Source of the DNA: a virus
DNA: 64,000 bases
Direction: 5' to 3' (one strand)
IMG/VR virus record: IMGVR_UViG_3300038426_000075
Location: 24,039 to 88,038 of that record
This document shows, piece by piece, positions 13,817 to 34,937 of the stretch (positions within the stretch are counted from its first letter, which is position 1; each line of letters starts with the position of its first letter). The notes under the pieces are model-generated. The model had not been told where the DNA came from. It saw nothing but the letters and a program-made list of their open reading frames with translations, and did no database searches. The translations under genes and the position numbers were made by a program.

Positions 13817-13922
13817 TGTCTTCCTCCTCCATAATTTTGATTCCATGACTAATGATCACGTCCTGGACTTCGAGCACGATCTCTTTCTTTTCCTCTTTCT
13901 TTTCTTCTTTAATTTCTTCCAT
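13809..13922 (-). CDS. Short Glu/Lys-rich protein (37 aa)
   Basis: An ATG at 13922 follows TAGGAGGT at ideal spacing and opens a 37-codon frame ending at 13809 inside the start of the next gene. The first half is a strongly charged helix of Glu and Lys. The second half contains the SD sequence for the following gene, so translation would couple the two. The RBS and the overlap support it as a real gene. Confidence 0.5.
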   Translation of the reverse strand: MEEIKEEKKEEKKEIVLEVQDVIISHGIKIMEEEDNG

Positions 13923-13934
13923 CTTAATTACCTC

Positions 13935-14864
13935 CTATCGCTTTCTATGTGTTATCGGATCAACCATTGCCCTGAATGATTCCAGGTCAAAGTCGGCTCC
14001 ATCAAGGTTTCTTATCACGAAGGACATAAATCTGTTCTTCAATCCCCGTGGAAATTTGACCCTTTCTTCCCCGGAAAAAGTCCCATTTGTATTCAGGACC
14101 CTTGTTATCGGATCTATCCTTCCCTCATCAAGGATAAGTTGTATGGAAATTGGCCCCCCTCTTTTTACGATCCATCCTTCTCGAAGTCGCTTTATGACAT
14201 CCCTCCACAAATCCTCAGTCCCAGTTTGGATTGCGCTATCAATCCTGACCCCGGCATCATCATCTCCATCCAAAAGAAAAACCCCTTGCTCGGAAGCCCC
14301 AATGTAAATACCGAGTCCATGGTAATCGCAGAATGAGTTGAATGGATAATTGCTGTACTCAGTCGTTCCAAAATGGCTCAGATTTACAGCGAATCCCTTT
14401 CGAATCGGAACGAATGCCGGCAGCACTCTGATCTCAAGCCATGGGTCAATAAATGGGATATCTAAGGCAAAGGCCAACTGGTTTTGATGGCCAATGGTAA
14501 GAACAAGCCCCAATGCGGGAATTTCAATTGCTCCACTAAGTACCCCACCGGATATCAAGGTTCCAGATAATTGAAGGGCAGGGATTCGGAGTGCGGCATC
14601 AATCTCATTACGAGGAGCAATCCTAAGAGAAAGTTCTACTGCCGGCATGGGGAGAGAAGCAGATAGCTTCCCCCCGCTTTTGATGGTTGCAGAGACCTCC
14701 AGGGCAGGGACTTCAAGTGGAAAGTCGAGTACCGCCCCCTGAGAGATGCTGGCACTCAGTTCGAGAGCAGGGATCCCTAAGCTGGCCGAGAGTGTACCCG
14801 CACTGATAACAAGCTCGGTCTCCAGGACAGGGATCTCAAGTGCAAACCACAGGTTATTTGACAT
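13935..14864 (-). CDS. Virion protein with IPALE beta-repeats (309 aa)
   Basis: Residues 5-150 contain about seven repeats of 20-21 residues built on [L]-x-x-[A]-[L]-x-[IV]-P-[AV]-[LI]-[EQG]-x-[ST]-x-x-[I], alternating short beta strands. The C-terminal 150 residues form a non-repeated domain. The same IPA[LI]E signature appears once at the very end of the protein at 15697-16698, two genes upstream in the transcript. The arrangement suggests a beta-helical or beta-stacked stem built from a shared module, probably part of the tail. Confidence 0.5.
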   Translation of the reverse strand: MSNNLWFALEIPVLETELVISAGTLSASLGIPALELSASISQGAVLDFPLEVPALEVSATIKSGGKLSASLPMPAVELSLRIAPRNEIDAALRIPALQLSGTLISGGVLSGAIEIPALGLVLTIGHQNQLAFALDIPFIDPWLEIRVLPAFVPIRKGFAVNLSHFGTTEYSNYPFNSFCDYHGLGIYIGASEQGVFLLDGDDDAGVRIDSAIQTGTEDLWRDVIKRLREGWIVKRGGPISIQLILDEGRIDPITRVLNTNGTFSGEERVKFPRGLKNRFMSFVIRNLDGADFDLESFRAMVDPITHRKR

Positions 14865-16707: not shown

Positions 16708-17685
16708 CTAATAACTCTTCCAGATTCCAGATCTACCGGACCTGACTTGTCTTTCCGATCGATCCAAGAAGATCAGGTCTTTCTTGACCTTCGCCTTTAA
16801 AATCTCAAAACGTTTACCATTTTTATCCGATGATGCCGGATCAAGGGTCTGTGTATCTTCTTTTAGGAAAGCCTCCCTGCCTATTCCATAGATCAATTCC
16901 CGGTGATACATTGCCTTGATTTCCGGGGCCACCGGAGGATTCGCAGTGATATCAGCAGTGGTGAATGGAGCCAGGGGTAAGCGATTGACCACCGTAATAA
17001 GGGTGTTACAGACCTTCCGAAGCGTAGCACTCGTCAGGAATTCATCGGACAAAGCTTGGTTGACGGTGATCTCGGATGCGGTGAGCGAAGCGACCGTTAC
17101 ATAACCATTGTTTTTGACCGTCCCGGAAATATTGATCTCATCCCCTACGTCATAGTGGGTCGTGAAGTTCCATGGATTTCCGTCTTCATCCACTCCAGTT
17201 ATTGAAATCTGACTCGTTGCTGCCGTAAATGAAATGCTCGAAACCCCTACTACCTCTCCCTTTCTGTGGTATTTTGGATATATATAAAAATAGCCCTTTC
17301 CACATTCTGGAATGTACCGCCGAGGACCATGCCATTCCCCTTCGTGATGATGCTCTTCCCTCCAATTCCTGTGCCATTGGTCCATATAGGCCTCGGAGGT
17401 TCTTATGAGGGTTCGGGGATGACCTGGATGATGATGTAAGAGATAGGCACCTTCTTTGATGTTGAGCACTAGGTCATCCGTGGTATATAGACCCATGTTA
17501 CTAAGTAACTTATACTGAGTAAGAGAAACTGTAGATCGATCCTCCACAAGTAATGTTTCTCTGTATAACTCTTCGGTAATAATATTCAGATAATGGATAA
17601 TCTCATCGTTTCCCCACAAAAAGGGCTCAATTGTATCGTCAAGGACCGTGCTTCGCGTGAGGTTAATTATTTCACCGACATTCAT
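16708..17685 (-). CDS. Head-tail adaptor (connector) protein (325 aa)
   Basis: The start MNVGEIINLTR at 17685 is used because AGGGGA precedes it. A 48-codon upstream extension would run under the oppositely oriented HNH gene. The first 60 residues match the phage adaptor pattern in which a short helical bundle with LDDTIEPFLW and DEIIHYLN is followed by an acidic helix (DUF6682-like connector). A beta-rich insertion lies at about residues 125-200 and a helical C-terminus follows. Such proteins form a ring under the portal. Confidence 0.6.
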   Translation of the reverse strand: MNVGEIINLTRSTVLDDTIEPFLWGNDEIIHYLNIITEELYRETLLVEDRSTVSLTQYKLLSNMGLYTTDDLVLNIKEGAYLLHHHPGHPRTLIRTSEAYMDQWHRNWREEHHHEGEWHGPRRYIPECGKGYFYIYPKYHRKGEVVGVSSISFTAATSQISITGVDEDGNPWNFTTHYDVGDEINISGTVKNNGYVTVASLTASEITVNQALSDEFLTSATLRKVCNTLITVVNRLPLAPFTTADITANPPVAPEIKAMYHRELIYGIGREAFLKEDTQTLDPASSDKNGKRFEILKAKVKKDLIFLDRSERQVRSGRSGIWKSY

Positions 17686-17696
17686 GACTTTTCCCC

Positions 17697-17725
17697 TTGA
17701 CAAACATATTACGCGATTGCATACT
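17697..17725 (+). promoter_or_regulatory. Sigma-70-type promoter for the reverse-oriented HNH gene
   Basis: TTGACA at 17697-17702 and CATACT at 17720-17725 are separated by 17 bases. The predicted start site falls only about ten bases before the ATG at 17741, so the leader would be almost absent. Either the leader is very short or an earlier start codon is used. Confidence 0.45.
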
Positions 17726-17740
17726 AAGAGAAAAACCAAA

Positions 17741-18337
17741 ATGCTTAAGCCTCCGAACTGGACAGAAGCTGAGAAAGAAATCCTTCGTAGATATTTCCCT
17801 ACGGAATCCAAAGAATATCTTTCTTCCATACTTCATAGAAACTTCGCGGCTATCGAGCGAAAAGCCAACTATTTGGGCATCAGAAGGTATCACCCTGAGA
17901 GCAGATTTGATAGTTTTTGGACTCCTGAACCCAATACTGGCTGCCGGCTGTGGACGGGGTCTGTAAATAGAAAAGGATATGGGCAAATTAGCAATCAAAG
18001 ACCTGTTCTTGCTCATCGAGTATCGTGGGAACTGTATATAGGTCCTATTCCAAATGGTCTTTGCGTACTTCATAAATGTGACATCCCCTCTTGCGTAAAC
18101 CATCGCCATCTTTTTCTTGGCACCCAACAGGATAACTCGGATGATTGTTGCAAGAAAAAGAGACAACTCTTTGGGGAACAAAAACCTGGGGCAAAACTGT
18201 CCGATGCCGCCGTAATAGCTATCAGACAGGATTCGAGAACTCAAAGAGAGATAGCTAAATCCTTTGGCGTATCCCAAAGTGCAATCGCTCAATCTAAAAT
18301 TGGAAAAACTTGGAAACATGTCACTAACCCTTCCTAA
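17741..18337 (+). CDS. HNH homing endonuclease, opposite strand (198 aa)
   Basis: This is the only gene on the plus strand inside the virion block. An N-terminal helical domain (about residues 1-60, TEAEKEIL start) precedes an HNH_3-type core in which GYGQI, HRVSWELYIGPIPNGL, a CDIPSCVNHRHLFLGT zinc/His region and NSDD follow in order. The C-terminal 45 residues look like a DNA-binding helix-turn-helix with REIAKSFGVSQSAIAQ. This organisation is typical of freestanding homing endonucleases. It sits between the adaptor and a capsid-stabilising gene with its own promoter. Confidence 0.8.
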   Translation: MLKPPNWTEAEKEILRRYFPTESKEYLSSILHRNFAAIERKANYLGIRRYHPESRFDSFWTPEPNTGCRLWTGSVNRKGYGQISNQRPVLAHRVSWELYIGPIPNGLCVLHKCDIPSCVNHRHLFLGTQQDNSDDCCKKKRQLFGEQKPGAKLSDAAVIAIRQDSRTQREIAKSFGVSQSAIAQSKIGKTWKHVTNPS

Positions 18338-18685
18338 CTATTTCAGTTCGCCTTTTTTGGCCTTCTCGATAGAACCAATGAGGCTATCGTTTTTCTTAGG
18401 AGATTTGGTCTGGACTCCGACCTTCTGAAGTTGGACTTCGACACTAAACTGATTCTTGTCTCCCTGTCTGTCCACCTTTCTGACCTCCATCACTTCACCA
18501 ATCCCAGAAATATCGACCTTCTCACCTATCTTGACCTTTTCCATCTGTGGAAATTTACCAATCAGATCGGTATTAAAGTTAAGCCTAAACCCATAAGGAT
18601 ATTTCTCATCCAAAAGACTGGGTTGACTGTCTTTCTTCAATTCTGCCTTGCTCTTCTTAGGGATTTTAAGATCAATTAAATTCAC
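18338..18685 (-). CDS. Capsid staple/stabilising-type protein (115 aa)
   Basis: A GTG start follows AAAGGAGG. The N-terminus (PKKSKAELKK), the YPYGFRLNF motif and the beta-barrel-like VKIGEKVDISGIGEVMEV segment match a widespread small phage protein family described as a capsid staple or cement protein. It lies close to capsid genes, which fits. It ends just beyond the convergent HNH gene. Confidence 0.5.
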   Translation of the reverse strand: MNLIDLKIPKKSKAELKKDSQPSLLDEKYPYGFRLNFNTDLIGKFPQMEKVKIGEKVDISGIGEVMEVRKVDRQGDKNQFSVEVQLQKVGVQTKSPKKNDSLIGSIEKAKKGELK

Positions 18686-18700
18686 GTTATTCGCCTCCTT

Positions 18701-18856
18701 TCAATCCTCGTTCTCGAATGTATAGCCGCAAAAAGGGCAGCGGCCGTGGAATGTTTCATCCGGCAAAAAGATCTGTCCGCACTTTCTGCAATGGATCACA
18801 TAACTATTCCCCGGGTTGGGATCAATAGACCCTTCGCTTACGGTTTGATCAGCCAT
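18701..18856 (-). CDS. Small zinc-ribbon protein (51 aa)
   Basis: An ATG at 18856 with AAGGAGG upstream opens 51 codons ending at 18701. Two CxxC knuckles (CRKCG and CPFCG) about 17 residues apart form a classic rubredoxin-like zinc ribbon. The upstream and downstream neighbours are also compact virion-block genes. Function unknown. Confidence 0.6.
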   Translation of the reverse strand: MADQTVSEGSIDPNPGNSYVIHCRKCGQIFLPDETFHGRCPFCGYTFENED

Positions 18857-18858
18857 AC

Positions 18859-18978
18859 CTAATCCTCCTTAACGTGCCCACAGACCTTACACACCTTAAA
18901 GATTCTCCGGCCCTTCTTCACCTTTCTCCAACTGCATTCTCCACAGGATGGGCATTTATCTGAAGATTTTATAGTCCC
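18859..18978 (-). other. Zinc-ribbon coding sequence in frame beyond a TAA stop
   Basis: Directly after the TAA that ends the 166-aa gene, the same frame stays open for 39 codons. It encodes CPSCGEC and CKVCGH, a complete-looking zinc ribbon, ending in TAG just before the next gene. No ATG, GTG or TTG begins it, and an SD for the next gene lies at its end. It may be a readthrough extension, a gene with a non-standard start, or the remnant of a fused gene. Confidence 0.4.
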
Positions 18979-19479
18979 TTACCCCATAATCCCCATCTGC
19001 GAGAGAACACTTGGTTCCTTCTCCGTTTTAGGTCTCCCGGTGCGTTTCGACGCCTTGTTATCCTTCGGCTGCTCGGCCTTTCCGGTTACCGCCTCAGTCT
19101 TCTCAACTGGCTCGGGCGCCTCATCTTCCATCGCCTCGGCTTGCGCCTGCAGGGACCTGATTTCGGCCAGCAATTCTGCCTTGGTCATCTTCTTGCCGGC
19201 AGCCGGTGGTGCTGGATGATCGGGGGGCAATACTTCTTCCTCGAACTCCGGCCCTCCGAATCTCTGATCCCACCATGCGAGAGCCTTTTGCCTCTGTGGA
19301 TCGGGCAGAGATTCCAAGAGGGATTTGTCTTTTACAGGTTCCCCATTGGGAAGGATGTAATTTCCATCCATCGTCTCAAAGAAATTTCCCTGTTCTGTCG
19401 TAAAATTATGGCGCGTATAGACCTCCACTCCGTTCAAAACCTTTCTCGATCCTTCCGGTACTGTTTGGTTCGGTAACAT
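18979..19479 (-). CDS. Acidic virion-block protein (166 aa)
   Basis: The start has AAGGAGAG upstream and follows the terminator at 19507-19535. Residues 1-90 look folded. Residues 90-160 are a Glu/Ala/Pro-rich helix and linker ending in basic RTGRPKTEKE. The frame continues past the stop into a zinc ribbon (see 18859-18978). Function not recognised. Confidence 0.45.
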   Translation of the reverse strand: MLPNQTVPEGSRKVLNGVEVYTRHNFTTEQGNFFETMDGNYILPNGEPVKDKSLLESLPDPQRQKALAWWDQRFGGPEFEEEVLPPDHPAPPAAGKKMTKAELLAEIRSLQAQAEAMEDEAPEPVEKTEAVTGKAEQPKDNKASKRTGRPKTEKEPSVLSQMGIMG

Positions 19480-21300: not shown

Positions 21301-22260
21301 TTACGAGCTGGAAATGTAGCAGCCCTTCACTTTTCCAGCTGTTGCGGTCAATGGCCAAACGAGTCCGAGGCCAAGAACCCCATACCATGCCGCTGAATTT
21401 AACCGACCATGATCCTGTCCGAAGTTAACCTGCACTCTGACCTCCGGCGTTTCCGCCTCGATCATAGCTGCAAAGTCGTCTCCGAGGATGATCCCTTCAC
21501 CAAGAACAGAATTCGTCCCCGCGTTATTTTTGAGACAGACAGTGTCCTTGATTTCGATACACCGGATACTCTCAATCTTTCCAACCTCGGAGTTATGGAA
21601 GACATCCCCTTCACGGAGATATTGCTTCCAAGTTTCAAAGTTGTCGTCATTCTTGACGCCCCTCATTGCCTTTGTGGCGAGCAATCCAATATAGTCGTCA
21701 CCCTCGTAAGGATCTACGATATAGGTGTCAGCAAAGGCATCCCTGATCGCTCCCAGATGAGCGATGTTTACGTTGACAAGGGCTGCTGTAACAATGGTCC
21801 CGGTTTCAGTGAAGGTCCCTCCTGTCAGAGAAGTAGGGGTGTATGTCAGGTAGGTGGTCTTCATGACGGTTGCCGCAAGTCGGTCCAGGGCCTTTGTCAT
21901 CTGCTTTCTGAGGGCTTTCTGAATCGGGTCCTGCGGGTCGAATTTGGAAAGCAATTGGGACATATGGCTGAATGTCACCGCACGGCCATACTCTGCAACT
22001 GTGATCGCCGTGGTGGACAGAGCAAAGTCGTCCACGGGGATCCTGTCGTGCTCCGAAAGAGCAGCACTTGTGGGCTGGGTCAAAAGATCAGCCCGGGTAA
22101 GGGTTTGTGACTCGCCGCGTTTCTTCCCGAAGCCAGGTTCGGTCCTGACGAAATCCATGAACTTGGACTCGACAATAGACTGTTCACGAAGCTTCGCACT
22201 CAAAGCATTATTCTTGTAGACGCCTGTGGGAGCGCTAAACTCCCAGGTAAAATCTGCCAT
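21301..22260 (-). CDS. Major capsid protein, N4-gp56 family (319 aa)
   Basis: Start with AAGGAGG upstream. Length and features match the N4-gp56 major capsid family (HK97 fold): an N-terminal YKNNALSAKLREQ arm, a central region with the SHMSQLLSKFDP and AATVMKTTYLTYTP segments, and a C-terminal AWYGVLGLGLVWP motif. It follows the scaffold gene. It would form the icosahedral shell. Confidence 0.85.
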   Translation of the reverse strand: MADFTWEFSAPTGVYKNNALSAKLREQSIVESKFMDFVRTEPGFGKKRGESQTLTRADLLTQPTSAALSEHDRIPVDDFALSTTAITVAEYGRAVTFSHMSQLLSKFDPQDPIQKALRKQMTKALDRLAATVMKTTYLTYTPTSLTGGTFTETGTIVTAALVNVNIAHLGAIRDAFADTYIVDPYEGDDYIGLLATKAMRGVKNDDNFETWKQYLREGDVFHNSEVGKIESIRCIEIKDTVCLKNNAGTNSVLGEGIILGDDFAAMIEAETPEVRVQVNFGQDHGRLNSAAWYGVLGLGLVWPLTATAGKVKGCYISSS

Positions 22261-24018: not shown

Positions 24019-24095
24019 TGGTAGCGGGAGCCAGATTCGCACTGGCGACCTCCGGGGTATGAGCCCGGCGCGCTTACTGCCTGCGCCATCCCGCA
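24019..24095 (-). tRNA. tRNA-Met (CAU), initiator-like, atypical
   Basis: The 77-nt fold starts at 24095 with U1 and ends in an encoded CCA. The anticodon stem is CCGGG/CCCGG, giving the three G-C pairs characteristic of initiator tRNA. Positions 1 and 72 are both U, so they are unpaired as in initiators. The anticodon CAT is at 24059-24061. The D stem GCGC and T stem GCCAG/CTGGC are intact. The T loop is TGCGAAT, with G at the usual U55. The D loop lacks the usual GG pair. Confidence 0.75.
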
Positions 24096-24454: not shown

Positions 24455-24696
24455 GCCTCTCTCCAAATTCCTTTTTCAAGAAACCCATGCCATTTATGTT
24501 CACCCTCATCGAGCAGAATCGAAGGTGAAACTGTTATTGTTCCATCCTCATGCTCGGTAACTTCATGATTGATTAAACTTCCCATATGGCATCCAGGTGG
24601 TCTCATATACCATGTGCCGTACTTATCCTTCCCATACTCACCCTCACACAAAAGAAGGTTTCCCTTTTCGTCTGGATAAGCCCTTCGCCCAATCAT
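24451..24696 (-). CDS. DUF6527-like small protein (81 aa)
   Basis: The central motif with CHMGSLINH, followed by a TITVSPSILLDEGEHKWHG segment and LEKGIWR, matches a small phage family of the DUF6527 type. It is coupled to both neighbours by ATGA overlaps. The family function is not established. Confidence 0.4.
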   Translation of the reverse strand: MIGRRAYPDEKGNLLLCEGEYGKDKYGTWYMRPPGCHMGSLINHEVTEHEDGTITVSPSILLDEGEHKWHGFLEKGIWREA

Positions 24697-24938
24697 CTCC
24701 CCTTCCTCTTCTTTGGGGCATATGAACTCAGGGACGATCCTCGACCGATCGATGGAAACTTAGCCTTTACCGCAGCCCTAACTCTCGATTCAACCGGCTT
24801 ACCAGAGGCTCGAGCCAATGCATTCCTAGCATGGCTAATATTTTGAATCGGATATGAGCCTGATCCTGGTGCCTTGCTTGGTATCGCAAATTGACTCTTG
24901 GAAAGTTTTTTCCTTTCGGAATAGCTTAACTTTGCCAT
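24693..24938 (-). CDS. DUF6582-like small basic protein (81 aa)
   Basis: The start MAKLSYSERKK at 24938 has AGGAGGA upstream. The pattern of YPI, HARNALARAS, and KVRAAVK-like RVRAAVKAKFPSI fits a family of short basic phage proteins with conserved HARNAL and AAVKAKFP segments. The tail is KKRKGR. It is the most conserved-looking gene of this cluster. Confidence 0.5.
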   Translation of the reverse strand: MAKLSYSERKKLSKSQFAIPSKAPGSGSYPIQNISHARNALARASGKPVESRVRAAVKAKFPSIGRGSSLSSYAPKKRKGR

Positions 24939-24964
24939 TTCATTCCTCCTGAGGAACATTGAAA

Positions 24965-25267
24965 TTAAACAGGAATTCTCTTCTTACCCCTCTTTGCCTT
25001 CTTGCCAGTCGGCATGAATCCCGCCAAAGGCGTACCTCTCATTTTCATAACCTTCGATCTCCCGGGAGAAACAGGCCCGCCTTTAGCCCTCGGAATTAAC
25101 GGCTCTTTTAGCTGACGAACTGCCCACGGTTTTGGACCCGTATAAGGAAGAGCAACTCCTCCCTGTGCAACACGATCTTTCATGCTCTTTCCGTAAGGTT
25201 TGTACTTCGGTACAGGAGTGCTGACTCCAATAGCTTCGTTATACTTTTCAAACGGATCTCTTGCCAT
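24965..25267 (-). CDS. Basic protein with C-terminal RGxPL module (100 aa)
   Basis: Start with AGGGGA upstream. The protein is Pro/Gly/Lys-rich. Its last 27 residues (KMRGTPLAGFMP followed by a KKAKRGKK tail) are repeated in the next upstream gene (25290-25529) as KTRGRPLSAFMP plus KKAKRGKK, so the two are paralogues. A DNA- or RNA-binding tail is inferred from charge. Confidence 0.45.
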   Translation of the reverse strand: MARDPFEKYNEAIGVSTPVPKYKPYGKSMKDRVAQGGVALPYTGPKPWAVRQLKEPLIPRAKGGPVSPGRSKVMKMRGTPLAGFMPTGKKAKRGKKRIPV

Positions 25268-25289
25268 CGTCTTTCCCCTTCACTTGAAA

Positions 25290-25529
25290 TTAGACTGCAA
25301 GCCTCTTCTGGCCTTTCTTTCCCCGCTTCGCCTTTTTGGGTGAAGGCATAAATGCAGAAAGCGGCCTTCCCCTCGTTTTCATCAGGGACCGTCCGGGGAG
25401 TCCAGTCATAGGTGCAGCACCTAGACCGGATGCGGGTGGTGACGCTGGCATAGGCATTCTACCAGCCATGGGATTCATTCCCGGGGTACTCGGTCCTCCA
25501 AGCGGAATTCGTTGCTTTTTTCTAGCCAT
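25290..25529 (-). CDS. Basic Met/Pro-rich protein, paralogue of 24965-25267 (79 aa)
   Basis: Start with AGGGAGG upstream. The N-terminus is Met/Gly/Pro-rich (MNPMAGRMPMP). The C-terminal 30 residues share the RG-P-L-AFMP and KKAKRGKK elements with its neighbour. It may be a small DNA-condensing or internal virion protein. Confidence 0.45.
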   Translation of the reverse strand: MARKKQRIPLGGPSTPGMNPMAGRMPMPASPPASGLGAAPMTGLPGRSLMKTRGRPLSAFMPSPKKAKRGKKGQKRLAV

Positions 25530-25533
25530 TTCA

Positions 25534-25710
25534 TTACCTCCCTTTCTTTTTTTTCTTCTTATAGGGCAACCCCTTATCGGGTGTTGCTGCGAAATCGTGT
25601 AGGGCTACTCCGGTCATCTTGAGAATCCCCCGATTCTTCTTATAGACCTTCTCGGGATGATGTTCGGCAAGTCTGGCCAACCTGCCCATTGCTATTGATT
25701 CTGCTGGCAT
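25534..25710 (-). CDS. DUF3008-like small protein (58 aa)
   Basis: The start MPAESIAMGRLARLAEHHP at 25710 has AGGGGG upstream. The LHDFAATPDKGLP segment followed by Lys-rich tail resembles the short DUF3008-type phage family (DFAxT-GLP-K). A long upstream extension in this frame is rejected because it overlaps the next gene's coding sequence. Confidence 0.45.
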   Translation of the reverse strand: MPAESIAMGRLARLAEHHPEKVYKKNRGILKMTGVALHDFAATPDKGLPYKKKKKKGR

Positions 25711-25718
25711 CTTACCCC

Positions 25719-26018
25719 CTATGTGATGTGAACCCCTGCTAATGCAGCGAGAATCAGGACGATCCAGATGATGGCGATGATACAGACAATGAATTTGAGT
25801 ATCTTCGGAAGAAGAGCCCAAATTTTTGCCATCTCTCTTGCCCAATAACCAATCGCCCACAAAGCAATTCCTGCCAAAATGCAGATCACGATAATCAGAA
25901 TGAGGGGGCCTAAAAACCTCGATACGTTGATGCTGCCCCCTGCAAAGGCAACGCTCGGTAAGCTGCATACTGCCATAGCCAATAACCAAAGCCATCCATT
26001 CCTGAGAGATTTAAACAT
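25719..26018 (-). CDS. Membrane protein with signal peptide and hydrophobic segments (99 aa)
   Basis: The first 26 residues form a Sec signal-like sequence ending in a SVAFA cleavage site. Two further hydrophobic stretches occupy about residues 35-58 and 70-92, and the protein ends in a short polar tail. This resembles secreted or inner-membrane phage accessory proteins. It begins the run of exported proteins that continues to 30.9 kb. A holin or receptor-related role is possible. Confidence 0.5.
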   Translation of the reverse strand: MFKSLRNGWLWLLAMAVCSLPSVAFAGGSINVSRFLGPLILIIVICILAGIALWAIGYWAREMAKIWALLPKILKFIVCIIAIIWIVLILAALAGVHIT

Positions 26019-26030
26019 GGTTTTCTCCTT

Positions 26031-26348
26031 TCAATTTAGTTTCTTGAAATTTCTCGTCCCGATATTGTCCCTGCCGTTATACATCCGAACAGGTTTCCAC
26101 GTGGAGTATTTAACTGGCCTACCGTCTGTATTTCGCATCTTCATCACCCGGTCAAATTTTGGTTTCTCTTTGAACAGATTAGATAAATCCTCTTCTTCCT
26201 TTTCCCTTTGGAGCTGAGTAAGAGTAAGAAGCAAACGATCAACCTGATTAGTGTCTGGCCCCGCCGTGCTTGTCGTGGAGCCGGTGCTCGGCAAATAAGT
26301 GGCCGTGGTCCTGGGCGTTTCCGACACTGTTACGTATACAGGGACCAT
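26031..26348 (-). CDS. Hypothetical protein (105 aa)
   Basis: The start MVPVYVTVSE at 26348 follows AGGAGGAGG. The N-terminal third is Ser/Thr/Pro-rich; the remainder is a charged helical segment (QLQREKEEEDLSNLFKE) and a short basic end. A potential 21-codon upstream reading frame overlaps its leader. No family recognised. Confidence 0.4.
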   Translation of the reverse strand: MVPVYVTVSETPRTTATYLPSTGSTTSTAGPDTNQVDRLLLTLTQLQREKEEEDLSNLFKEKPKFDRVMKMRNTDGRPVKYSTWKPVRMYNGRDNIGTRNFKKLN

Positions 26349-26395
26349 GCCTCCTCCTCTCCCTTGGAGCATATTATTAATATAATCTTTTTCAT
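26330..26395 (-). CDS. Possible 21-aa leader peptide
   Basis: An ATG at 26395 preceded by GGAGAGG opens MKKIILIICSKGEEEAWSLYT, stopping inside the next gene. The hydrophobic start and overlap suggest a coupled leader peptide, but chance cannot be excluded. The DNA here contains CTCCAAGGGAG, also seen upstream of 30901. Confidence 0.25.
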   Translation of the reverse strand: MKKIILIICSKGEEEAWSLYT

Positions 26396-26410
26396 GTTTA
26401 TCCTCTCCTC

Positions 26411-27970
26411 CTATCTAAAACTAAACCCTTGACCAGTGATTCCTTGTAAAGCTGGAGGTGTCCACTCGAATGCCCCCATATCCCAGGCTGGGCCTTGGGG
26501 ACGGGGGATGCCATCTTTATCAGTGGTAAAGGTTGCAGATAAATCCAGTCCCCCATCTCTCACATGACCTGTTCCTTGTGGAGAAGAAGAGGTAAGTTTG
26601 TAACTTGCATCCCAGGCAGGATTTTCGATAATGTTCCCATCTGCCGTTCCTGTCCATGTATCATTGAGATATGCAATTGTTCTCGTTGCTCCATCAAGAT
26701 AAACAGCTGTATCGGCTGCCTTATAGAAATCATTGTTTTGTACGGTGATGGAATTTGATGCAAGCAATTCACTAAACGCATATCCTGTACCACCTATATA
26801 GACAATGTTATTTTTTATAAGATTTCCATCTCCAGCATCTGACTCTATTTTAATTCCAGAATTGGCCGTAGCACTATTTGGTATGATGGCATTGTTATAA
26901 ATCAGATTACTTGCCGATGAACTCTGAATCATTATTTCAGAGTAAGTAGAAGAATTATAATCTGTCAGATTATTATATACAACATTGTTATAAATGACAT
27001 TTGAATTTGAAGTCTGAGCAATTTCAATTCCGTAATATTTATTTCCATAGACTGTATTTCCATAAACTGAGTTTGAATTGCATGAAGTGACTAACTGGAT
27101 ACCTCTATTTCCCGATTCCCATCCTGTATTATTATAGATGGTATTATTATAAACCAAATTGCCGACCATAGAATTCAGGGCTATCCCATTGCCAGCACAG
27201 TTATAGATTGTGTTATTGTAGAAAGAGTTTCCGTTCGGAGGATTAGCTTCAAACCCTTGTCCTGACGCACTTATTCCATTTGCCCCTGCAGTGATGGTAT
27301 TATAAATGATGTTGTACCTAATAATATTATTATCCGCACCATAACCACTAAGTTTAACTCCGTAGTAATTTATACCGTGAATAAGGCAATACTCAACAAT
27401 ACAGGCTTTTGGCCCATCTTCGGTAGAAGCATTTCCAAGATTCTCAGCCGTGATTCCTTCAAGTTTGATTCCCTGATAGACCTGGTAATTGTTATTCCGA
27501 ATCTCTAAATTCTTCAACCAGATATGATCCCCACCTATTACCTTAATAATATTATAAGCAGCATCTCCTCCGTCAAAGACAATGTGATGACCTACATCAC
27601 TACCAGAACCATCCCATTTCACATACTGAACAATATTAAGAGTATCCCCAATTTCTATCATATTGATATGGCTTGCCGTGGAGATAGTAACATCCTCATT
27701 CTGATAATTAGAGAAGGTAACATAGTTTCCAGCACTTCCATCATCGGCAGAAGTGATAACAATGGCAGAGGTTATTACATAGGTTCCAGACCTAATATAA
27801 ATATTGTCTCCTCCAGCCAAAGTTTTATTATCAATGACAGTTTGAACCGTTAGGCAGGGAGAAGCAAAACTGCAAGTCGTTCCACTTCCTGTCGTGGCAA
27901 CATAGTAATCCGTTGCGAAAACTGGAGAGGCTCCGATTAGAAATAAAACCAAAATGATTAACTTTCTCAT
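26411..27970 (-). CDS. Exported right-handed beta-helix protein (519 aa)
   Basis: The first 19 residues (MRKLIILVLFLIGASPVFA) are a Sec signal peptide. Residues 25-490 are a parallel beta-helix: many rungs with N-x-[IV]-[VI]-Y-N-N motifs, the pattern of the DUF1565 / right-handed beta-helix families. The end carries an RPQGPAWDMGAFEW motif that is typical of exported bacterial beta-helix proteins. It resembles surface adhesins or polysaccharide lyases. An exported protein in a phage structural cluster is unusual. Confidence 0.6.
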   Translation of the reverse strand: MRKLIILVLFLIGASPVFATDYYVATTGSGTTCSFASPCLTVQTVIDNKTLAGGDNIYIRSGTYVITSAIVITSADDGSAGNYVTFSNYQNEDVTISTASHINMIEIGDTLNIVQYVKWDGSGSDVGHHIVFDGGDAAYNIIKVIGGDHIWLKNLEIRNNNYQVYQGIKLEGITAENLGNASTEDGPKACIVEYCLIHGINYYGVKLSGYGADNNIIRYNIIYNTITAGANGISASGQGFEANPPNGNSFYNNTIYNCAGNGIALNSMVGNLVYNNTIYNNTGWESGNRGIQLVTSCNSNSVYGNTVYGNKYYGIEIAQTSNSNVIYNNVVYNNLTDYNSSTYSEIMIQSSSASNLIYNNAIIPNSATANSGIKIESDAGDGNLIKNNIVYIGGTGYAFSELLASNSITVQNNDFYKAADTAVYLDGATRTIAYLNDTWTGTADGNIIENPAWDASYKLTSSSPQGTGHVRDGGLDLSATFTTDKDGIPRPQGPAWDMGAFEWTPPALQGITGQGFSFR

Positions 27971-28542
27971 GACGGATTACCTGCTTGATTATTAAAAATA
28001 ATGGCAAGTGGTCTACTACTTACCAAAGTTGCTCCCGAAACATTGTCTCCACAATTATATACATGAGTGACACCATAAGTATCTGGAATACCTGTCGCAA
28101 ATGCCCCCGCAACCATAGTTATTGATGATCCAGTAACTTGTAATCCTAACCAATATGTTGTCGCTGCTAAAATTGTAGTGGATGATGATAGGGCCACGTT
28201 AATCCATGTTGCTGAGGATATCGCACCGAGACCTGTGGGTGCCGTTAATTTGATAGCGGTTCCAGAAGAATCCCAGATTGTGATACAAACCGTTTCATCT
28301 CCCGAAGCGGTTAGAACTAATATATGGGCATAACTTATCGTTCCGGCAGTTGTCGTAACGTAATCCGAATACACAATTTTAGTAGTAAGACATTCTAGCG
28401 AGTCTGCATTCGTAGTGCCGCCAATCAGACCATTTGCACCACCCGCAGCCACTCCTCCCCCAACCACTCCTTGCATCATTACCTGACCAAAACAAGGAGT
28501 TGCGATTAATAATAAAAGTAAGAGAAAAATTAACTTTTTCAT
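27967..28542 (-). CDS. Exported beta-sandwich protein (191 aa)
   Basis: A 19-residue Sec signal (MKKLIFLLLLLLIATPCFG) precedes a Gly-rich linker and a beta-rich domain at about residues 45-185 (YWLGLQVTGSSITMVAGAF) resembling carbohydrate-binding-like sandwiches. It overlaps the beta-helix gene by ATGA, so they are made together. Extracellular or periplasmic function is inferred. Confidence 0.5.
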   Translation of the reverse strand: MKKLIFLLLLLLIATPCFGQVMMQGVVGGGVAAGGANGLIGGTTNADSLECLTTKIVYSDYVTTTAGTISYAHILVLTASGDETVCITIWDSSGTAIKLTAPTGLGAISSATWINVALSSSTTILAATTYWLGLQVTGSSITMVAGAFATGIPDTYGVTHVYNCGDNVSGATLVSSRPLAIIFNNQAGNPS

Positions 28543-28551
28543 GTTGACTCC

Positions 28552-30531
28552 TTAATCTTTCGTCCACGTTCCCATCTGATGATATGCTGCCCAGTGAGTA
28601 TCATCCACTCCAATTACACAGGCTGAGTCACCTGCTGCACCATTGGATTTGATCTTTCCACCAGTATTAGTAAGCACTCCATCTAAATCTATGAACTGTC
28701 CAGAAGTGGAAGTTTGGAAGGTAAGAACTTGACTAATTCCAGTATAGTTCCTAATGCAATACTGTAAACCCGCTGCTGCTGTTGGTAAGGTAAAAATTGA
28801 ATGAGCAGCACTATCTCCAATGTTCCAAAAGTAGGAGGCGTTCCCGTGAGTGGCGACCACAATCGCTGTAGCCGAATTTGCCGTGGAGGTTAGCGTACCT
28901 ACTGTCCCGTCCACCCTTCCCGTTGCCATGAGTGAGGTTCCCGTAGCGGCTCCAAGAGCAGGAGTCGTAAAGGATGGACTCACAAGAGGAGCATAGGCCC
29001 CAAGTTTCGTGCTAACCACACCTTCAGAAGGAATGACCGTAGTACTAGAGCCTAATGCCGTTGAAGGATTGAAGGTAAGACTACTAAGTGGAGAAATAAG
29101 GTTCCCATCTCCATCTGCCGCAGGAATCCCCCACATAAACATTGAATAATTTGTACTAATTGTTAAGGGCATTTGGAGCCAAAAATTAGTAGCAACAGTT
29201 CCAGAGGGGCCTGCAAATCCTGGGCCAGTGATATCCGTACTATTTGAGGCATAAAGTGTTATGAAACCATATTTTCCTGATACTTTCTTGGTGACAAAAC
29301 TCTTTCCTGTGAAGGTATAATTCCCGGCATCCCAATCGGCAGTCAAAGCTTGTGTGCCCGCCGCAACCAAAGGGTTAGTCAAAACTGGTTGCCAGACGCC
29401 TTCCGTACCAGCACAGACCACTGGCAAACCACTTGCATCTGAACAAATCGGTTTACTGGCTGTCACCCATTTCCAAGCTGGAATTGTACCCGACATGTAA
29501 AGACCAAAGGCGTTTGTACCTAAAGGAACAAGACCTACGAGATTGGTTCCGTTATAATAAAGAGTGTACCCCTTTGCAAAAGTTACTCCTGCAATGTCCG
29601 TGAGGAGAGCGTTGGATGCCTGTTTTCCCCCCAATCCAGTATCCACATAGGCCGTGGTCGCCAACGCTGTAGAACTGTTCCCTTGAGATTTGGTAGTGGC
29701 TGTGGTTCCATCTGGCAAGGCTGGTGTTCCAGAGAGATTGCCTGCTGTGCCTGAAATATTAGAATCCAGAAAGGCAATCGTTTTTCTTGCCGTGGCACTT
29801 GTGATCGTAAAATAGAGGGCGTCGGTCGTGAACTCAAAAGCCCCAGCCACAGGAGTATTAGCTACGGTCCCCGAAACCATCTTCCAAGGTATTGCTCCTG
29901 TCCCGCCAGTTGGCATGGTAAGGATGCCCGTAAAGGTAGGTGAGGCAAGTGGAGCATAACCACTAAGAGAGGGAATATCCGCAAACTTAGCAAGTTTTGT
30001 CTCGGCAGCATTTGAATCTTCAAAATATGGATAAGTGTCTGATTTGAAGTAAAGCCTGTATTTTGCACCCGTAGGAGCGGCAGGTTTAGAAATAATCCCA
30101 AAATCAAGGTAACCTGTAAGGGGAACAGAACCGTCTGCCTTAAAGTCACCGTATGATCCTGCTATCTGCCAAACCCCCTCTGTCCCTGCACACACTGCTG
30201 GCTCTCCGCTGGAGTCCGTACAGGCTGGTTTGGAAGCTGTAACTCCAACACCTTTTATATGAGTGCTATCAGTAAACACTCCCCATTGATGAATAGCTGG
30301 AGTACCAGAATGGATAAGATCACCAGTACCAGCTCCTCCTACTGCTACAGATACTGACCCATCGGTGTTATTGTTCAGCGTGCCATTGCTAAATTTTAGC
30401 TTCCACGGTACTGCCGAATGAGATCCGTCCTCTTCCTCAATGATCGGCCGCCCAGGAGCTGGAAGTGCCTGACCATGAACCTGTAAAGGCAAGAAAAGTA
30501 TAACCAAGAACAGTAGGATTAGTCTTTTCAT
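28552..30531 (-). CDS. Tail-fibre-like protein with a signal peptide (659 aa)
   Basis: A 20-residue hydrophobic N-terminus (MKRLILLFLVILFLPLQVHG) is followed by fibre-type repeats: YAPLASPTFTG, YAPLVSPSFTT, and STALATTAYVDTGLGG. The ASKP-C-D-SG-P-VCAGTEGVWQ motif occurs twice (about residues 99-122 and 360-383). These are typical of phage tail fibres and collar fibres, which normally have no signal peptide. The protein could be exported or the N-terminus could instead be an anchor. Confidence 0.6.
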   Translation of the reverse strand: MKRLILLFLVILFLPLQVHGQALPAPGRPIIEEEDGSHSAVPWKLKFSNGTLNNNTDGSVSVAVGGAGTGDLIHSGTPAIHQWGVFTDSTHIKGVGVTASKPACTDSSGEPAVCAGTEGVWQIAGSYGDFKADGSVPLTGYLDFGIISKPAAPTGAKYRLYFKSDTYPYFEDSNAAETKLAKFADIPSLSGYAPLASPTFTGILTMPTGGTGAIPWKMVSGTVANTPVAGAFEFTTDALYFTITSATARKTIAFLDSNISGTAGNLSGTPALPDGTTATTKSQGNSSTALATTAYVDTGLGGKQASNALLTDIAGVTFAKGYTLYYNGTNLVGLVPLGTNAFGLYMSGTIPAWKWVTASKPICSDASGLPVVCAGTEGVWQPVLTNPLVAAGTQALTADWDAGNYTFTGKSFVTKKVSGKYGFITLYASNSTDITGPGFAGPSGTVATNFWLQMPLTISTNYSMFMWGIPAADGDGNLISPLSSLTFNPSTALGSSTTVIPSEGVVSTKLGAYAPLVSPSFTTPALGAATGTSLMATGRVDGTVGTLTSTANSATAIVVATHGNASYFWNIGDSAAHSIFTLPTAAAGLQYCIRNYTGISQVLTFQTSTSGQFIDLDGVLTNTGGKIKSNGAAGDSACVIGVDDTHWAAYHQMGTWTKD

Positions 30532-30541
30532 ATTCTCCTCC

Positions 30542-30901
30542 CTACTCGTAATAATTCGCCTTGATCGTGGCGTCTACACTCCCAGACCTAATGGCTCTGA
30601 AGTTCCTGATCTTATCCGAACTGTCCAACCAGATCGGAGTCATTGCCGTGGCCGTAAACCCCGTAGTCGTATTGGCCACGAAGGTTATTGGATCGCAGCT
30701 CCAGAGGATTGAAGCGGTCTCAACCTGTAACTGAGCCGTTCGTGCCCTTCCATAAGTGGTTGAGATCAGGCTTACCACCGAGGTGCTGACCGTCACCTTT
30801 TCAGAGGCCACAAACCATGCGGCCATGGCGGAAGAGGCCAGAAGCACTACCAAAATCAGTATCAGCATTTCCCATTTTTTAAGTAATCTAAAGGTCTTCA
30901 T
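30542..30901 (-). CDS. Exported or membrane-anchored small protein (119 aa)
   Basis: A basic start (KTFRLLKKW) and a hydrophobic segment ending in SSAMA form a signal peptide or anchor. The remaining 90 residues are beta-rich. It lies next to the fibre gene and is preceded by CAAGGGAGGGG at good spacing. A partner of the fibre is a reasonable guess. Confidence 0.45.
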   Translation of the reverse strand: MKTFRLLKKWEMLILILVVLLASSAMAAWFVASEKVTVSTSVVSLISTTYGRARTAQLQVETASILWSCDPITFVANTTTGFTATAMTPIWLDSSDKIRNFRAIRSGSVDATIKANYYE

Positions 30902-30937
30902 TTTTCCCCTCCCTTGGAGTATATGATTTGTGGTATA

Positions 30938-31699
30938 TCACTTATAGTAAATTGTGACGTAAACCGTTCCCCCACCAACTGGGTAATAATTTGCAGTCAC
31001 ACCCGTGTCGTTCAAATTGGACGTGCCTTCTTGAAACCCTCCGGATACCGTTGACATTACGGTAACGTATCCCATATCTGCCGATGATGCCGGAAGAGCT
31101 GGGAGAGCTAAAATAGCAAGAGCTTCGGAGCCATAACCGGTCCCGTTGGCCGATCCTGGGGTTACCGTTATTGTTCCGCCAGCAACGATTGAAAATCTGT
31201 AAATGCCCCATTTGTTTTGAGGGATAGTACCCGCTGCCAGAGCTGTTCCGATCGGAACAGCGATTTTTGAATATCCCGTTCCTGCGATAGCGAAGGTAAA
31301 GGCACCGTTGGCTACATTCGTATGGGTTGATCCAAGGGCAAGGGCGGTGCCTGGTGCCGCAGAGAGGTTTACGGTGATAACGCACCCTTCAAAAATCGGA
31401 TATTCGGCCTCCGGATCATCGTGTTTTGAAATCCTCACCGGCGTTGGACTTACCTGGTTCGCTGCTAGGTTCGCCTTGTGAAAAGTCATATTGCCATTTT
31501 GATCAAAGGCTTGAAACTCGGCTGTAATTGGACTAATCCAGTTTGGAATCTCAATCAAGGTGGTCTCCGCATCCCCGGAAGATACAGAATAGTTTGGAGG
31601 CCCGACTCCTCCTTTAATAACAAAGCTCTTGGTTATATCGTTTGCCCCAAACACTAACGCCTGCCTTGGAATATCCCTAAATCTTTTATTGGCACCCAT
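30938..31699 (-). CDS. Beta-rich virion protein (253 aa)
   Basis: Start with AGAGGAGG upstream. The N-terminus is charged (ANKRFRDIPRQA). Residues 50-253 have Ser/Thr/Gly-rich alternating beta strands, with TVTPGSANGTGYGSEALAI near residue 190. No signal peptide is seen, in contrast to its downstream neighbours. Likely a structural protein. Confidence 0.45.
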   Translation of the reverse strand: MGANKRFRDIPRQALVFGANDITKSFVIKGGVGPPNYSVSSGDAETTLIEIPNWISPITAEFQAFDQNGNMTFHKANLAANQVSPTPVRISKHDDPEAEYPIFEGCVITVNLSAAPGTALALGSTHTNVANGAFTFAIAGTGYSKIAVPIGTALAAGTIPQNKWGIYRFSIVAGGTITVTPGSANGTGYGSEALAILALPALPASSADMGYVTVMSTVSGGFQEGTSNLNDTGVTANYYPVGGGTVYVTIYYK

Positions 31700-31710
31700 T
31701 TTTACCTCCT

Positions 31711-33129
31711 CTAAAAGTGAAAGTCGTCTCCCTTCATGGCGTTCACTTCTTTGATAATTTGAAGCACATCCGTCTCGAACTTTGCAGGAAACGAGCTATT
31801 GGACATCTCGATCTGGGAAGCGATCTTACCGGCCGCATCCACTGCGGCTTTCGGAGTCTTCCCGTGGCCCATGGCGGTCGCAACTACCTGATCGCCGGGA
31901 ACAAACCAATAGTCTCCCGCCTTCCTTACGATGCGCCTAAAGCCCATGTCTTTTCTTATTTCTTGAGGAAAGTGGATCACCTCCCATGATTTGATATCGT
32001 CGGTGTAAACGCCGACCTGTGTGACGTATCCAGGATCCACTTCGGCCCGAACGTCCTGACCGGCCGCAATCTTGTAGGTATATTCGGGATAATTCTTTAT
32101 GAATCTGGATTGGATCGCACCGCAGGGCCACGCATCACGAGAGGTTGGATCGTGGACTCTAACTTTCCTTCCGTCCCAAAAGAATTCGAAGCTGATATTC
32201 CCATGGTAACCAGACTTGATCAGGGAAGGCTTTACTTTGTTGAGAATATGCTCATCGATCCCATTTTCTTCCACCCAAACTCCGATGGTTCCCTCTCCTT
32301 TGACTTCTATCGTGTAGAGGAAGGGCCGGATATAATCCCTTCCATTGAAACCTACGTCAACACCCAATTCGAGGCCTGGACACGCACGCTGGATCAGGAT
32401 CTCCATGGTGGTAAGATATGGCCCAAAACCGGCCTGTGTAAGAGCCACGAGGGCCTGTGTTCGGGTCTTTACCCCCTTCCCCGTCTCTTTATTGCCTCGA
32501 TATTCGCCAACCTTCGGGAAGAAGAGCGTCTTTCCATCCTCGTTCTTTTCGATGTAATCAAGGCACTCATCCAAACCATGAACCACGACACCATCAGGGA
32601 CCCCCACACCCATCTCTTGGAGCCTCTGCCATCCCTTCACACGATTGTTTTCATTCTCTGCCCACCACGCAGAAGGTCCATAAACGTCTTTGCCTTCTCC
32701 ACGCCAGATATCGGCATCCTTGCCAAAGCAACAGTCGGTAATGACAACAAAATCCTTGGAGGCAGCCTCCATCATGCTATCCACCTTATGGAGTCCCTTA
32801 AACCCATCTCCTGAAATTTTGTTCTCAATGGACGGGTAGGCCGCCGCGCCGGCAATAAAATAATAGACTTCGAACTCCTTCATCAGTGCAAGGGCATGAT
32901 CAATACCCAGGTTCGTATCGATGAAGCCAACGGTCCGCGGCATCCCATGTTCTCGCTTAAGCATAGGAAGAGCTTTGGTCGCTTTTGCTGTCTGATAATT
33001 GGCGATTTCTGCATAGGAATATCCTTCTTTGTGCGCCTCTTCGACCTTAAAACCCGTAAATCCAGCGAGATAAAAAGCTATCTCCCGGTATGAATGACCC
33101 TCTTTTCTTTGGCCTTCAACATCGTACAT
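31711..33129 (-). CDS. ATP-grasp (PurD/GARS-like) protein (472 aa)
   Basis: The ATG overlaps the portal stop by one base. The N-terminus carries two 25-residue helical repeats (KEG-[HY]-SY-x-EI), similar to units in the polyvalent protein at the left edge. Residues 140-460 follow the glycinamide ribonucleotide synthetase (ATP-grasp) plan: NRVKGWQRLQEMGVGVP, a lysine-bearing FFPKVG strand (about 203-208), ELGVDVGFNGRD (about 254-265), DPTSR (327-331), and a C-terminal AAVDAAGKI helix. This family joins a carboxylate to an amine using ATP. It is diverged, and its substrate is unknown. Confidence 0.6.
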   Translation of the reverse strand: MYDVEGQRKEGHSYREIAFYLAGFTGFKVEEAHKEGYSYAEIANYQTAKATKALPMLKREHGMPRTVGFIDTNLGIDHALALMKEFEVYYFIAGAAAYPSIENKISGDGFKGLHKVDSMMEAASKDFVVITDCCFGKDADIWRGEGKDVYGPSAWWAENENNRVKGWQRLQEMGVGVPDGVVVHGLDECLDYIEKNEDGKTLFFPKVGEYRGNKETGKGVKTRTQALVALTQAGFGPYLTTMEILIQRACPGLELGVDVGFNGRDYIRPFLYTIEVKGEGTIGVWVEENGIDEHILNKVKPSLIKSGYHGNISFEFFWDGRKVRVHDPTSRDAWPCGAIQSRFIKNYPEYTYKIAAGQDVRAEVDPGYVTQVGVYTDDIKSWEVIHFPQEIRKDMGFRRIVRKAGDYWFVPGDQVVATAMGHGKTPKAAVDAAGKIASQIEMSNSSFPAKFETDVLQIIKEVNAMKGDDFHF

Positions 33130-34937
33130 TATTGCCCCTCGAATGCGGAAAGAGGTCTACGCGTAGGCTCCCCTTCACCAGGGGCCAAAGCCCCAGGAAC
33201 CAAACCAGCCCCACCGACAGCCGGCGGAGGTGCTTGATCAATTGCCATTGCTTGGTCATCCGTCATAATGAAGTCCGGGTCATGAAACCCGAACGCATTA
33301 ACTTCGTGTTTCAGAAGCTTATACGGTTTAAAATACTTACCGAACGTAGAGCTTTCTGCCTGCTTAAGGAAGGCTTGATACATTTGAATAAGCTGACTAT
33401 TCTTGATTGCCGCAGATATCCCCATGATCTTAATATCGCAATTGGCCCTCAACATCTCCTTGCGTTGTTCGATGGACATCTGAGCGAACTTTTGAGCATT
33501 GGGATTGTTTCGCATAACACGGGAAATACTGGGATCTGAGTATTCGTTCCAGTTCAGGATCACTACTTCCAAGGCAGCTCTAATCGTATCGACCGCACCT
33601 TCTTCGATATCCTCACCTATTGAATCGAAGACTGTCATAGACTGACCGAGCAATATCTCAGCCTCTCCCTTTGTTTTCTGGCTTTTAGTTCCACGTTGAC
33701 CAGCTGCTAATTGAGTAAGCATTGAGGAAGCTTCCCGGCGCTGGTCCCAATGTTGAAGCGTGGCCAGCGTTTCGTTGCTTGAGGGACTCGTGTAGACCTC
33801 CTTGACTACCTGCTGGCCAGGCGGGACATCTGGGTTTATAAATACCGTCTTACCAGGAAACATGGCGACATCGGTAGGATCCTCGAGACTCATTCGTTTT
33901 ATCTCTCGAAGTTTATTGACCCGCCACGAGAGATCGTCAATATGGAGGCTCATCAAGTTGCAGCTGTTAAGCCACAGAAGAAGAGAGGTCTCGATAACGC
34001 CATGTCCCTCAAACGTAAATAAATCTGGAAGGGGAGAAAAAGATATGCCTGGCCATCTCATCGTAACGAAGGGGTTGGGTTCCGGATTCCGGATCAAAAC
34101 ATCTCCAGCCACGGTAAACCTGGCGTTATCGAGGAGGAGTTCTCCCGACTTATCCAAAATAACGCCCCAATGCTCAATCAGTCTCACGGCTTTCCTGAAG
34201 GTACTTCTTTGGTAATACTGACCTTTCCTGCGGGCCCGTCTTTCGGCAGTTTCCTGTCCCCAGTTTGCTTCACTGGCTGTGACCTCATCTAACCTTACGT
34301 ACCGTGGACCGAGCTTTTTAACCTTCCATAAATCAAGCCACTCCACATGATCCCAGTAATCTCCCGACTGTGGCTCCCGTGGCGTCGCATCCGGGTCACG
34401 ATAGATCTGCCATGGAGGGACGAGGGAAAACATCAATCCCTTTCCGGGGACCCATCGTGGAATTATCTCATGGGATTGACCGATCGCAAAGCCAAGTTCT
34501 GTTCCATCAGAAAACGCAGTATCTAAACGGGCGTGTTGAGGATTGAACCAAAACTCAGAAGCCTCTCTAAGGAAAGAGGCAATCCATTTTTCATTCTCAT
34601 CATCTGGATTTACCGCCTCGATTTTATACCAATCTGGCTGGCGAAGTGCTTTTCGGATAATCGCTACTCCCTGTTTAACCGTGGAGGTCATATCCCCAGT
34701 TGTCATCTTGGCCTGCCACTCTTCTTTTTCGGAATAATCAATATCTGCCTTGTAGGCCCTATAGCACTGATCCCAGAGATATCTGACTTCTATGTTGGCT
34801 TGCTCACTCTCGTTTATGCAGGAATGAGCAAAATCAACATAGGTATCGGGGTCCTCCTCACCATAAGCCGCTGCAGCTTCAGCCCTCTCCTCGAGTTCCT
34901 GATCGTCTATCCCTTGAAGCCCTTCGTCATTCGCCAT
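33129..34937 (-). CDS. Portal protein (602 aa)
   Basis: Start with TAGGGA upstream, directly after a TACGCA palindrome. The length and layout match podovirus-type portals: an acidic N-terminus, the conserved central region with PPWQIYRDPDAT and HVEWLDLWKVK, a stem helix region (WLNSCNLMSLHIDDL), and a long helical C-terminal barrel. It would form the dodecameric DNA gate at one capsid vertex. It opens the virion block. Confidence 0.7.
   Translation of the reverse strand: MANDEGLQGIDDQELEERAEAAAAYGEEDPDTYVDFAHSCINESEQANIEVRYLWDQCYRAYKADIDYSEKEEWQAKMTTGDMTSTVKQGVAIIRKALRQPDWYKIEAVNPDDENEKWIASFLREASEFWFNPQHARLDTAFSDGTELGFAIGQSHEIIPRWVPGKGLMFSLVPPWQIYRDPDATPREPQSGDYWDHVEWLDLWKVKKLGPRYVRLDEVTASEANWGQETAERRARRKGQYYQRSTFRKAVRLIEHWGVILDKSGELLLDNARFTVAGDVLIRNPEPNPFVTMRWPGISFSPLPDLFTFEGHGVIETSLLLWLNSCNLMSLHIDDLSWRVNKLREIKRMSLEDPTDVAMFPGKTVFINPDVPPGQQVVKEVYTSPSSNETLATLQHWDQRREASSMLTQLAAGQRGTKSQKTKGEAEILLGQSMTVFDSIGEDIEEGAVDTIRAALEVVILNWNEYSDPSISRVMRNNPNAQKFAQMSIEQRKEMLRANCDIKIMGISAAIKNSQLIQMYQAFLKQAESSTFGKYFKPYKLLKHEVNAFGFHDPDFIMTDDQAMAIDQAPPPAVGGAGLVPGALAPGEGEPTRRPLSAFEGQ

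Follow-up and report, generated by a model that had tools for sequence, protein, structure and literature searches.

Most known examples of phage-encoded exported proteins are lysis proteins or small exclusion lipoproteins. Signal peptides in phages have been reported from endolysins, from lysis modules and from unspecified open reading frames (ORFs) (PMC8951688, PMC3338817, PMC5723332). Llp of phage T5 (PMC9586334) and Rtp45 of phage Rtp (PMC12685063) are secreted superinfection-exclusion lipoproteins that act at the receptor, and adsorption to debris is named among the things that exclusion prevents (PMC9586334). Recombinant gp38, a phage protein, inhibits adsorption of the phage (PMC12946066). 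Searches of open-access papers turned up no report of signal peptides on tail fibres or capsid-adjacent proteins. The subject of this report is a cassette of four genes for proteins with predicted signal peptides, located in a 64,000-nucleotide stretch of viral DNA (bases 24039-88038 of the 88-kb IMG/VR record IMGVR_UViG_3300038426_000075), hereafter the window. The structural genes of the window are on the minus strand, as is every cassette feature described below.

Like Llp and Rtp45, the cassette proteins are phage-encoded and predicted to be exported; the outer-membrane receptor is their proposed site of action, with a benefit that would include less adsorption to debris. Unlike Llp and Rtp45, which are small lipoproteins, they are non-lipidated fibre, beta-helix and virion-type proteins encoded in a late structural block. 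Signal-peptide endolysins and spanins are also phage Sec-signal proteins made late, but are lysis enzymes and adaptors. WceF of Pantoea combines a beta-helix tailspike fold with export, but is encoded by a bacterial gene in a biofilm operon and carries a Tat signal (PMC7949094). A preliminary description of this DNA had noted a run of exported proteins in the virion block. The present analysis adds that the run is a 4.5-kb inserted cassette, that such runs recur in unrelated phages and that predicted signal peptides are found on members of tail-fibre, spike and capsid-adjacent families, for which homologues lacking a signal peptide provide a natural control. Either surface-type proteins are exported to act on the host envelope, or a tailed virion is partly finished outside the cytoplasm. 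The choice matters for annotation, in which such genes currently count either as fibres or as secreted proteins of a host-like type.

An inserted cassette in the structural block

The cassette that contains the four genes spans 26379-30904, where blastn colinearity with L005 breaks. L005 is the closest relative, with 93% identity in the portal and 94% in the capsid protein. In L005 the homologue of a 253-aa (amino acid) protein (window 30938-31699; L005:11798-12562) is followed by the homologue of a small conserved protein (window 26031-26345; L005:12586-12909) with nothing in between, and about 31 bp of L005 match both edges of the cassette. The cassette is flanked by 24-nt imperfect direct repeats that are 88% identical and spaced 4550 bp apart, the upstream copy at 30905-30928 (AATCATATACTCCAAGGGAGGGGA) and the downstream copy at 26355-26378 (AATAATATGCTCCAAGGGAGAGGA). 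Exact matches to the 18-nt core of the repeat occur in the window only at the two cassette edges (0.3 matches would be expected even if three mismatches were allowed), and L005 has a single copy of the repeat at its empty junction. Four relatives, with 71-94% identity in their portal and capsid proteins, lack the cassette; three of them (L007, L010 and L012) have other genes in this slot, without signal peptides, and no signal-peptide run. The empty site in relatives, together with the flanking repeats, indicates that phages of this group can build a particle without the cassette.

A short scar at 26372-26410 consists of a ribosome-binding site and the codons ATG AAA AAG ATT ATA TTA ATA ATA (MKKIILII), which run into the downstream repeat. 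The scar looks like the truncated start of a further signal-peptide gene, suggesting that the donor held a longer run. GC content and GC content at third codon positions (GC3) are lower in two of the cassette genes. A scan of the block for promoters and terminators gave results at chance level, and no separate promoter is claimed. As a separate observation, probable homing-endonuclease genes (HNH or LAGLIDADG-like, judged by eye) dot the portal-capsid interval of relatives (L002 10802-11701, L005 12913-13194, L007 5580-6380 and L010 8394-9056); their scattered presence is a possible cause of the variability of this interval.

Predicted signal peptides

According to the preliminary description, five of six consecutive genes encode N-terminal signal peptides or anchors. 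This was confirmed: five of the ORFs are open and score highly, and the small conserved protein at 26031-26345 is the exception (score 2.7). Scores were assigned by a rule-based method that considers a positive n-region, a hydrophobic core and a -3/-1 site; eight E. coli signal peptides used as controls scored 10.8-15.7 and four negatives all scored at most 10.3. The proteins of 119, 659, 191 and 519 aa in the cassette scored 18.0, 15.9, 16.1 and 15.9, respectively, and the 99-aa product of a gene outside the insertion scored 12.9. Only 0.5% of ORFs in shuffled DNA and none of 127 plus-strand ORFs score as signal peptides, compared to 7 of 88 minus-strand genes. When labels were shuffled, five signal-peptide genes among six consecutive genes had a probability of 0.0002 and a run of four had a probability of 0.0013.

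Each of the four cassette proteins has a short positive start, a core with a mean Kyte-Doolittle hydropathy of 3.8-4.0 and a plausible signal peptidase site, and by the rule-based score all four fit the sequence pattern of Sec/signal peptidase I substrates (core of at least 8, small residues at -3/-1 and a polar mature start). None has a second hydrophobic segment (19-residue hydropathy 1.08-1.21), so the remainder appears soluble, and none has a lipobox cysteine after the signal peptide. The mature cassette proteins contain 1.21 cysteines per 100 aa, versus 0.62 in virion-block proteins that lack signal peptides, and the cysteine count is even in three of the four. Judged from these sequence properties, the four cassette proteins are very probably exported.

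Properties of the four proteins

The first gene of the cassette (30542-30901) encodes a 119-aa protein with a signal peptide (AMA/AWF) and a beta domain of approximately 90 residues. The mature domain aligns over its full length with a 95-aa protein that lacks a signal peptide (UOF78916, L039:20995-21282; 34% identity over 85 aa, pairwise E = 5e-11) and is encoded just downstream of the major capsid gene (phrog_267) of a spring siphovirus. A viral scan with this family gave eight further usable loci, including two duplicate pairs; a ninth match, L049, was spurious. In these members the domain stands at the very start or after a short lead; the exception is L048, where a signal peptide is present and a second signal-peptide gene follows. 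Thus, within this capsid-adjacent family of approximately 95 aa (L039, L041-L048), six distinct members lack a signal peptide, which is found only in L048 and the window copy. The window gene also differs from its relatives without signal peptides in lying between the portal and scaffold genes. AlphaFold2 modeled the domain from seven sequences with a predicted local distance difference test (pLDDT) score of 86.4. Foldseek searches with the model returned uncharacterised phage proteins of approximately 90-100 residues, with E-values down to 1.9e-5, and no match below 1e-3 in the PDB.

The second gene (28552-30531) encodes a 659-aa fibre-like protein with a signal peptide (VHG/QAL or GQA/LPA), fibre modules and two C-x9-C pairs. 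The earlier designation of this protein as tail-fibre-like is weak by hidden Markov model (phrog_4209 tail fibre, E = 0.019), but is favored by modules held in common with other phage fibres. An 80-residue module is 69% identical in a 542-aa signal-peptide protein of an unrelated phage (L002/L003), and a second module is 68% identical over 47 aa in a 1721-aa protein of a relative's record (G007). The phage proteins that share these modules are spike-like and themselves bear signal peptides.

The third gene (27967-28542) encodes a 191-aa protein that is a probable beta-sandwich. It has sub-threshold matches to DUF4082 (E = 0.015) and to the virion structural protein phrog_26200 (E = 0.014), and no relatives were found in the scans; an AlphaFold2 model made without an alignment had a pLDDT of 39 and was not used. 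The fourth gene (26411-27970) encodes a 519-aa protein with a signal peptidase site at VFA/TDY. The earlier identification of a large beta-helix protein is firm for this product, which matches the right-handed beta-helix family PF13229 (E = 1.8e-14). No homologues of the 659-, 191- or 519-aa proteins were found in isolate phages, and scans of bacterial genome contigs with the 659-aa protein and the major capsid protein gave no relatives. The only match to a lysis family among the four proteins was a chance-level spanin match (E = 0.31).

Recurrence in other phages

Several other uncultured phages, which are unrelated, also have runs of predicted signal-peptide genes. As the loci L032, L029, L031 and L023 were retrieved by beta-helix similarity, their number gives no estimate of frequency. 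In L002/L003 the gene for the 542-aa protein is the first in a run of three signal-peptide genes, which lies between the portal and capsid genes. In L032 signal peptides are present in 8 of 10 consecutive genes after the capsid gene, and a signal-peptide protein of L032 matches the virion structural family phrog_3287 over nearly its whole length. A 541-aa protein of L032 was considered as a tail nozzle and had no match to two candidate nozzle proteins. The run in L029 includes spike and LamG proteins with signal peptides (phrog_18522, E = 1.8e-9; PF13385, E = 4.6e-13), L031 has two signal-peptide genes ahead of scaffold-like and capsid genes, and L023 also contains a run. Isolates related by their capsid proteins mostly lack such runs; in Vibrio phage 1.232.O, two signal-peptide genes lie side by side (33721-34726 of MG592596).

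Record G007 (145 kb; loci L005 and L057-L061) is a single viral contig with two oppositely oriented virion modules from related phages, and is either a pair of tandem prophages or a chimeric assembly. The second module, referred to here as phage A, encodes a portal (P22_portal, 9e-137), a capsid protein (Phage_capsid_3, 2e-53) and a 142-aa signal-peptide protein after the portal. Three larger signal-peptide proteins of phage A are the 1721-aa fibre- or spike-like protein (AAA/TDYW), which is encoded between virion genes, a 251-aa protein that matches the tail-fibre family phrog_863 (3e-34) and a 416-aa protein with an Mtd_N domain (PF18454) at residues 30-66 (3e-14). The 416-aa protein is matched by 385 isolate records. 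In the two isolate tail fibres that were checked, the structural protein AOV61566 of S-WAM1 and the minor tail protein AXQ51864 of Gordonia phage Catfish, Mtd_N begins at residue 5, whereas in phage A it begins at residue 30, behind the signal peptide. The signal peptide is therefore an extra element ahead of a known tail-fibre start. Unlike the 416-aa fibre, the window cassette lacks Mtd_N.

Possible functions of the exported proteins

The fibre modules, the beta-helix and the probable beta-sandwich suggest binding to sugars or receptors of the host surface. We tentatively propose, at somewhat less than an even chance, that the locus is a late accessory cassette of Sec-exported proteins of fibre and virion-surface type, for which the host envelope or receptor is the place of action in trans. 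The four genes would be made late, together with the virion proteins; their products would leave via Sec, be cleaved by signal peptidase and form disulfides in the periplasm before acting at the envelope. There, the fibre, beta-helix and beta-sandwich modules may occupy receptor or glycan sites, such that the infected cell and the debris of lysis stop adsorbing further phages or the phage's own progeny, a protection that Llp and Rtp45 provide by other means (PMC9586334, PMC12685063). Such occupation is the most likely role, although as the main role it too has somewhat less than an even chance. The preliminary description held that the proteins are exported and are not ordinary virion parts assembled in the cytoplasm, a view strengthened in part by clean signal peptides, a doubled cysteine content and an accessory insertion absent from close relatives. 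It also named decoys, exclusion factors or surface fibres as possible roles; proteins of an exported surface or decoy type fit the data, but these three roles are not distinguished, and phage A keeps virion fibres in play.

Several observations weigh against action in trans. BLAST comparison of the cassette proteins with proteins of the same phage that lack signal peptides revealed no shared homology or receptor-binding domain; if the two competed for one receptor, such sharing might be seen. The position in a late block differs from that of exclusion proteins, which are expressed early in many phages (PMC9586334). Among the scanned proteins of phage A, no PHROG-recognised fibre lacks a signal peptide, although unrecognised ones may exist. 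As all recognised fibres of phage A bear signal peptides, its virion would be without a recognised fibre if such proteins never join it.

Phage A and the capsid-adjacent family leave room for the main rival explanation, in which the exported proteins are genuine subunits of fibres, spikes or decorations. They would fold in the periplasm, with disulfides, and be added only at lysis to particles that are otherwise complete. P22 tailspikes join heads in vitro. The cassette lies within the structural block, the 119-aa family is elsewhere capsid-adjacent and lacks signal peptides, the fibre- and spike-like proteins found in phage A (1721, 416 and 251 aa) all have signal peptides, with the largest encoded between virion genes, and L032 has a signal-peptide protein of a virion structural family. 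However, the lack of the cassette in near relatives speaks against an essential role in the virion here, no precedent was found, and receptor-binding proteins without signal peptides may have gone unrecognised. We consider this explanation unlikely for the cassette, if less so than the others below. The broader proposition, that some tailed phages export real virion subunits through Sec for joining at lysis, and thus assemble a tailed virion partly outside the cytoplasm, is likewise doubtful on present sequence evidence.

An improbable alternative is that the cassette encodes secreted glycan-active or adhesive beta-helix and lectin-like proteins, which degrade or bind host exopolysaccharide and so help the phage to be released and to spread, or which change the surface of a lysogen. 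The beta-helix fold of the 519-aa protein, the LamG and pectate-lyase-like domains in another run and the existence of an exported bacterial tailspike-like glycan hydrolase, WceF (PMC7949094), are consistent with such a role. A tyrosine integrase (PF00589, E = 1.6e-8) is encoded on the same record outside the window, which indicates that the phage may be temperate and makes lysogeny possible. However, no catalytic family was assigned, a late structural position does not suggest expression in a lysogen, and the capsid-adjacent 119-aa family is left unexplained.

It is quite unlikely that the hydrophobic N-termini are anchors that hold proteins in the virion or insert in the recipient membrane at entry. 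Although all are encoded in virion blocks and the neighbouring 99-aa protein is a genuine membrane protein, the n-region charge, core length and -3/-1 sites fit signal peptidase I substrates in gene after gene, the proteins are enriched in cysteine, and their homologues without signal peptides have no anchor at all. Finally, the lower GC and GC3 of two genes and the insertion with repeats could point to plain moron cargo, that is, ordinary secreted bacterial genes acquired by the phage, but this is very improbable given the fibre and capsid-adjacent phage modules and a bacterial genome scan that gave no relative of the 659-aa protein.

Neighbouring genes and other features

In the order of transcription, the structural genes ahead of the cassette include the terminase (42957-44603) and portal (33129-34937; phrog_1216, E = 2.6e-8) genes. 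A 472-aa protein (31711-33129) is encoded between the portal gene and the 253-aa gene, which is the near-side neighbour of the cassette and lacks a signal peptide. On the far side, the small conserved protein also has a homologue at L007:4825-5136; the start of its gene, given as 26372 for a 113-aa product, is probably at 26345 (MVP...), judging from L005. Next is the 99-aa protein (25719-26018), with a signal peptide or anchor and two further transmembrane segments (mature 19-residue hydropathy 3.31), which is a membrane protein. Then come small proteins, followed by a scaffold-like gene and by the capsid gene (21301-22260), so named because its product is homologous to proteins annotated as capsid in Vibrio phages and in E. 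coli phage PTXU04. A tRNA-Met gene is located within the structural block at 24019-24095.

Small basic proteins encoded at 24693-25600 have a short motif, R-x-x-PL-S/A-x-F, in common with the portal C-terminus. In the small proteins it is followed by KKxKRGKK. The motif may serve to dock a partner protein of the capsid or scaffold. A repeat motif (EG.s..EIA.YLA.tr.FD...h.kAG.s..EI..YL) opens the 472-aa protein and, as seen by eye, also occurs in a lipoprotein encoded near the integrase (record G000, 17533-18300) and in a 2409-aa tail-block protein (G007 74642-81871). This lipoprotein gene and a signal-peptide gene (G000 17533-19048) adjoin the integrase at 19052, as is often the case for lysogenic-conversion genes, and a relative carries a signal-peptide gene at the same integrase-side place (L061:2232-2504). 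Two further adjacent signal-peptide genes, for proteins of 198 and 126 aa (G000 13472-14505, L054), have homologues in the second G007 module. Near the putative lysis genes of the window are a lipoprotein and a 109-aa signal-peptide protein (45484-45927 and 46717-47046), the lipoprotein having a 69% identical homologue in phage A (L060:8344-8787). Two similar genes at 49659-49994 and 51344-51709 resemble, by eye, a duplicated M15-type endolysin with one degenerate copy.

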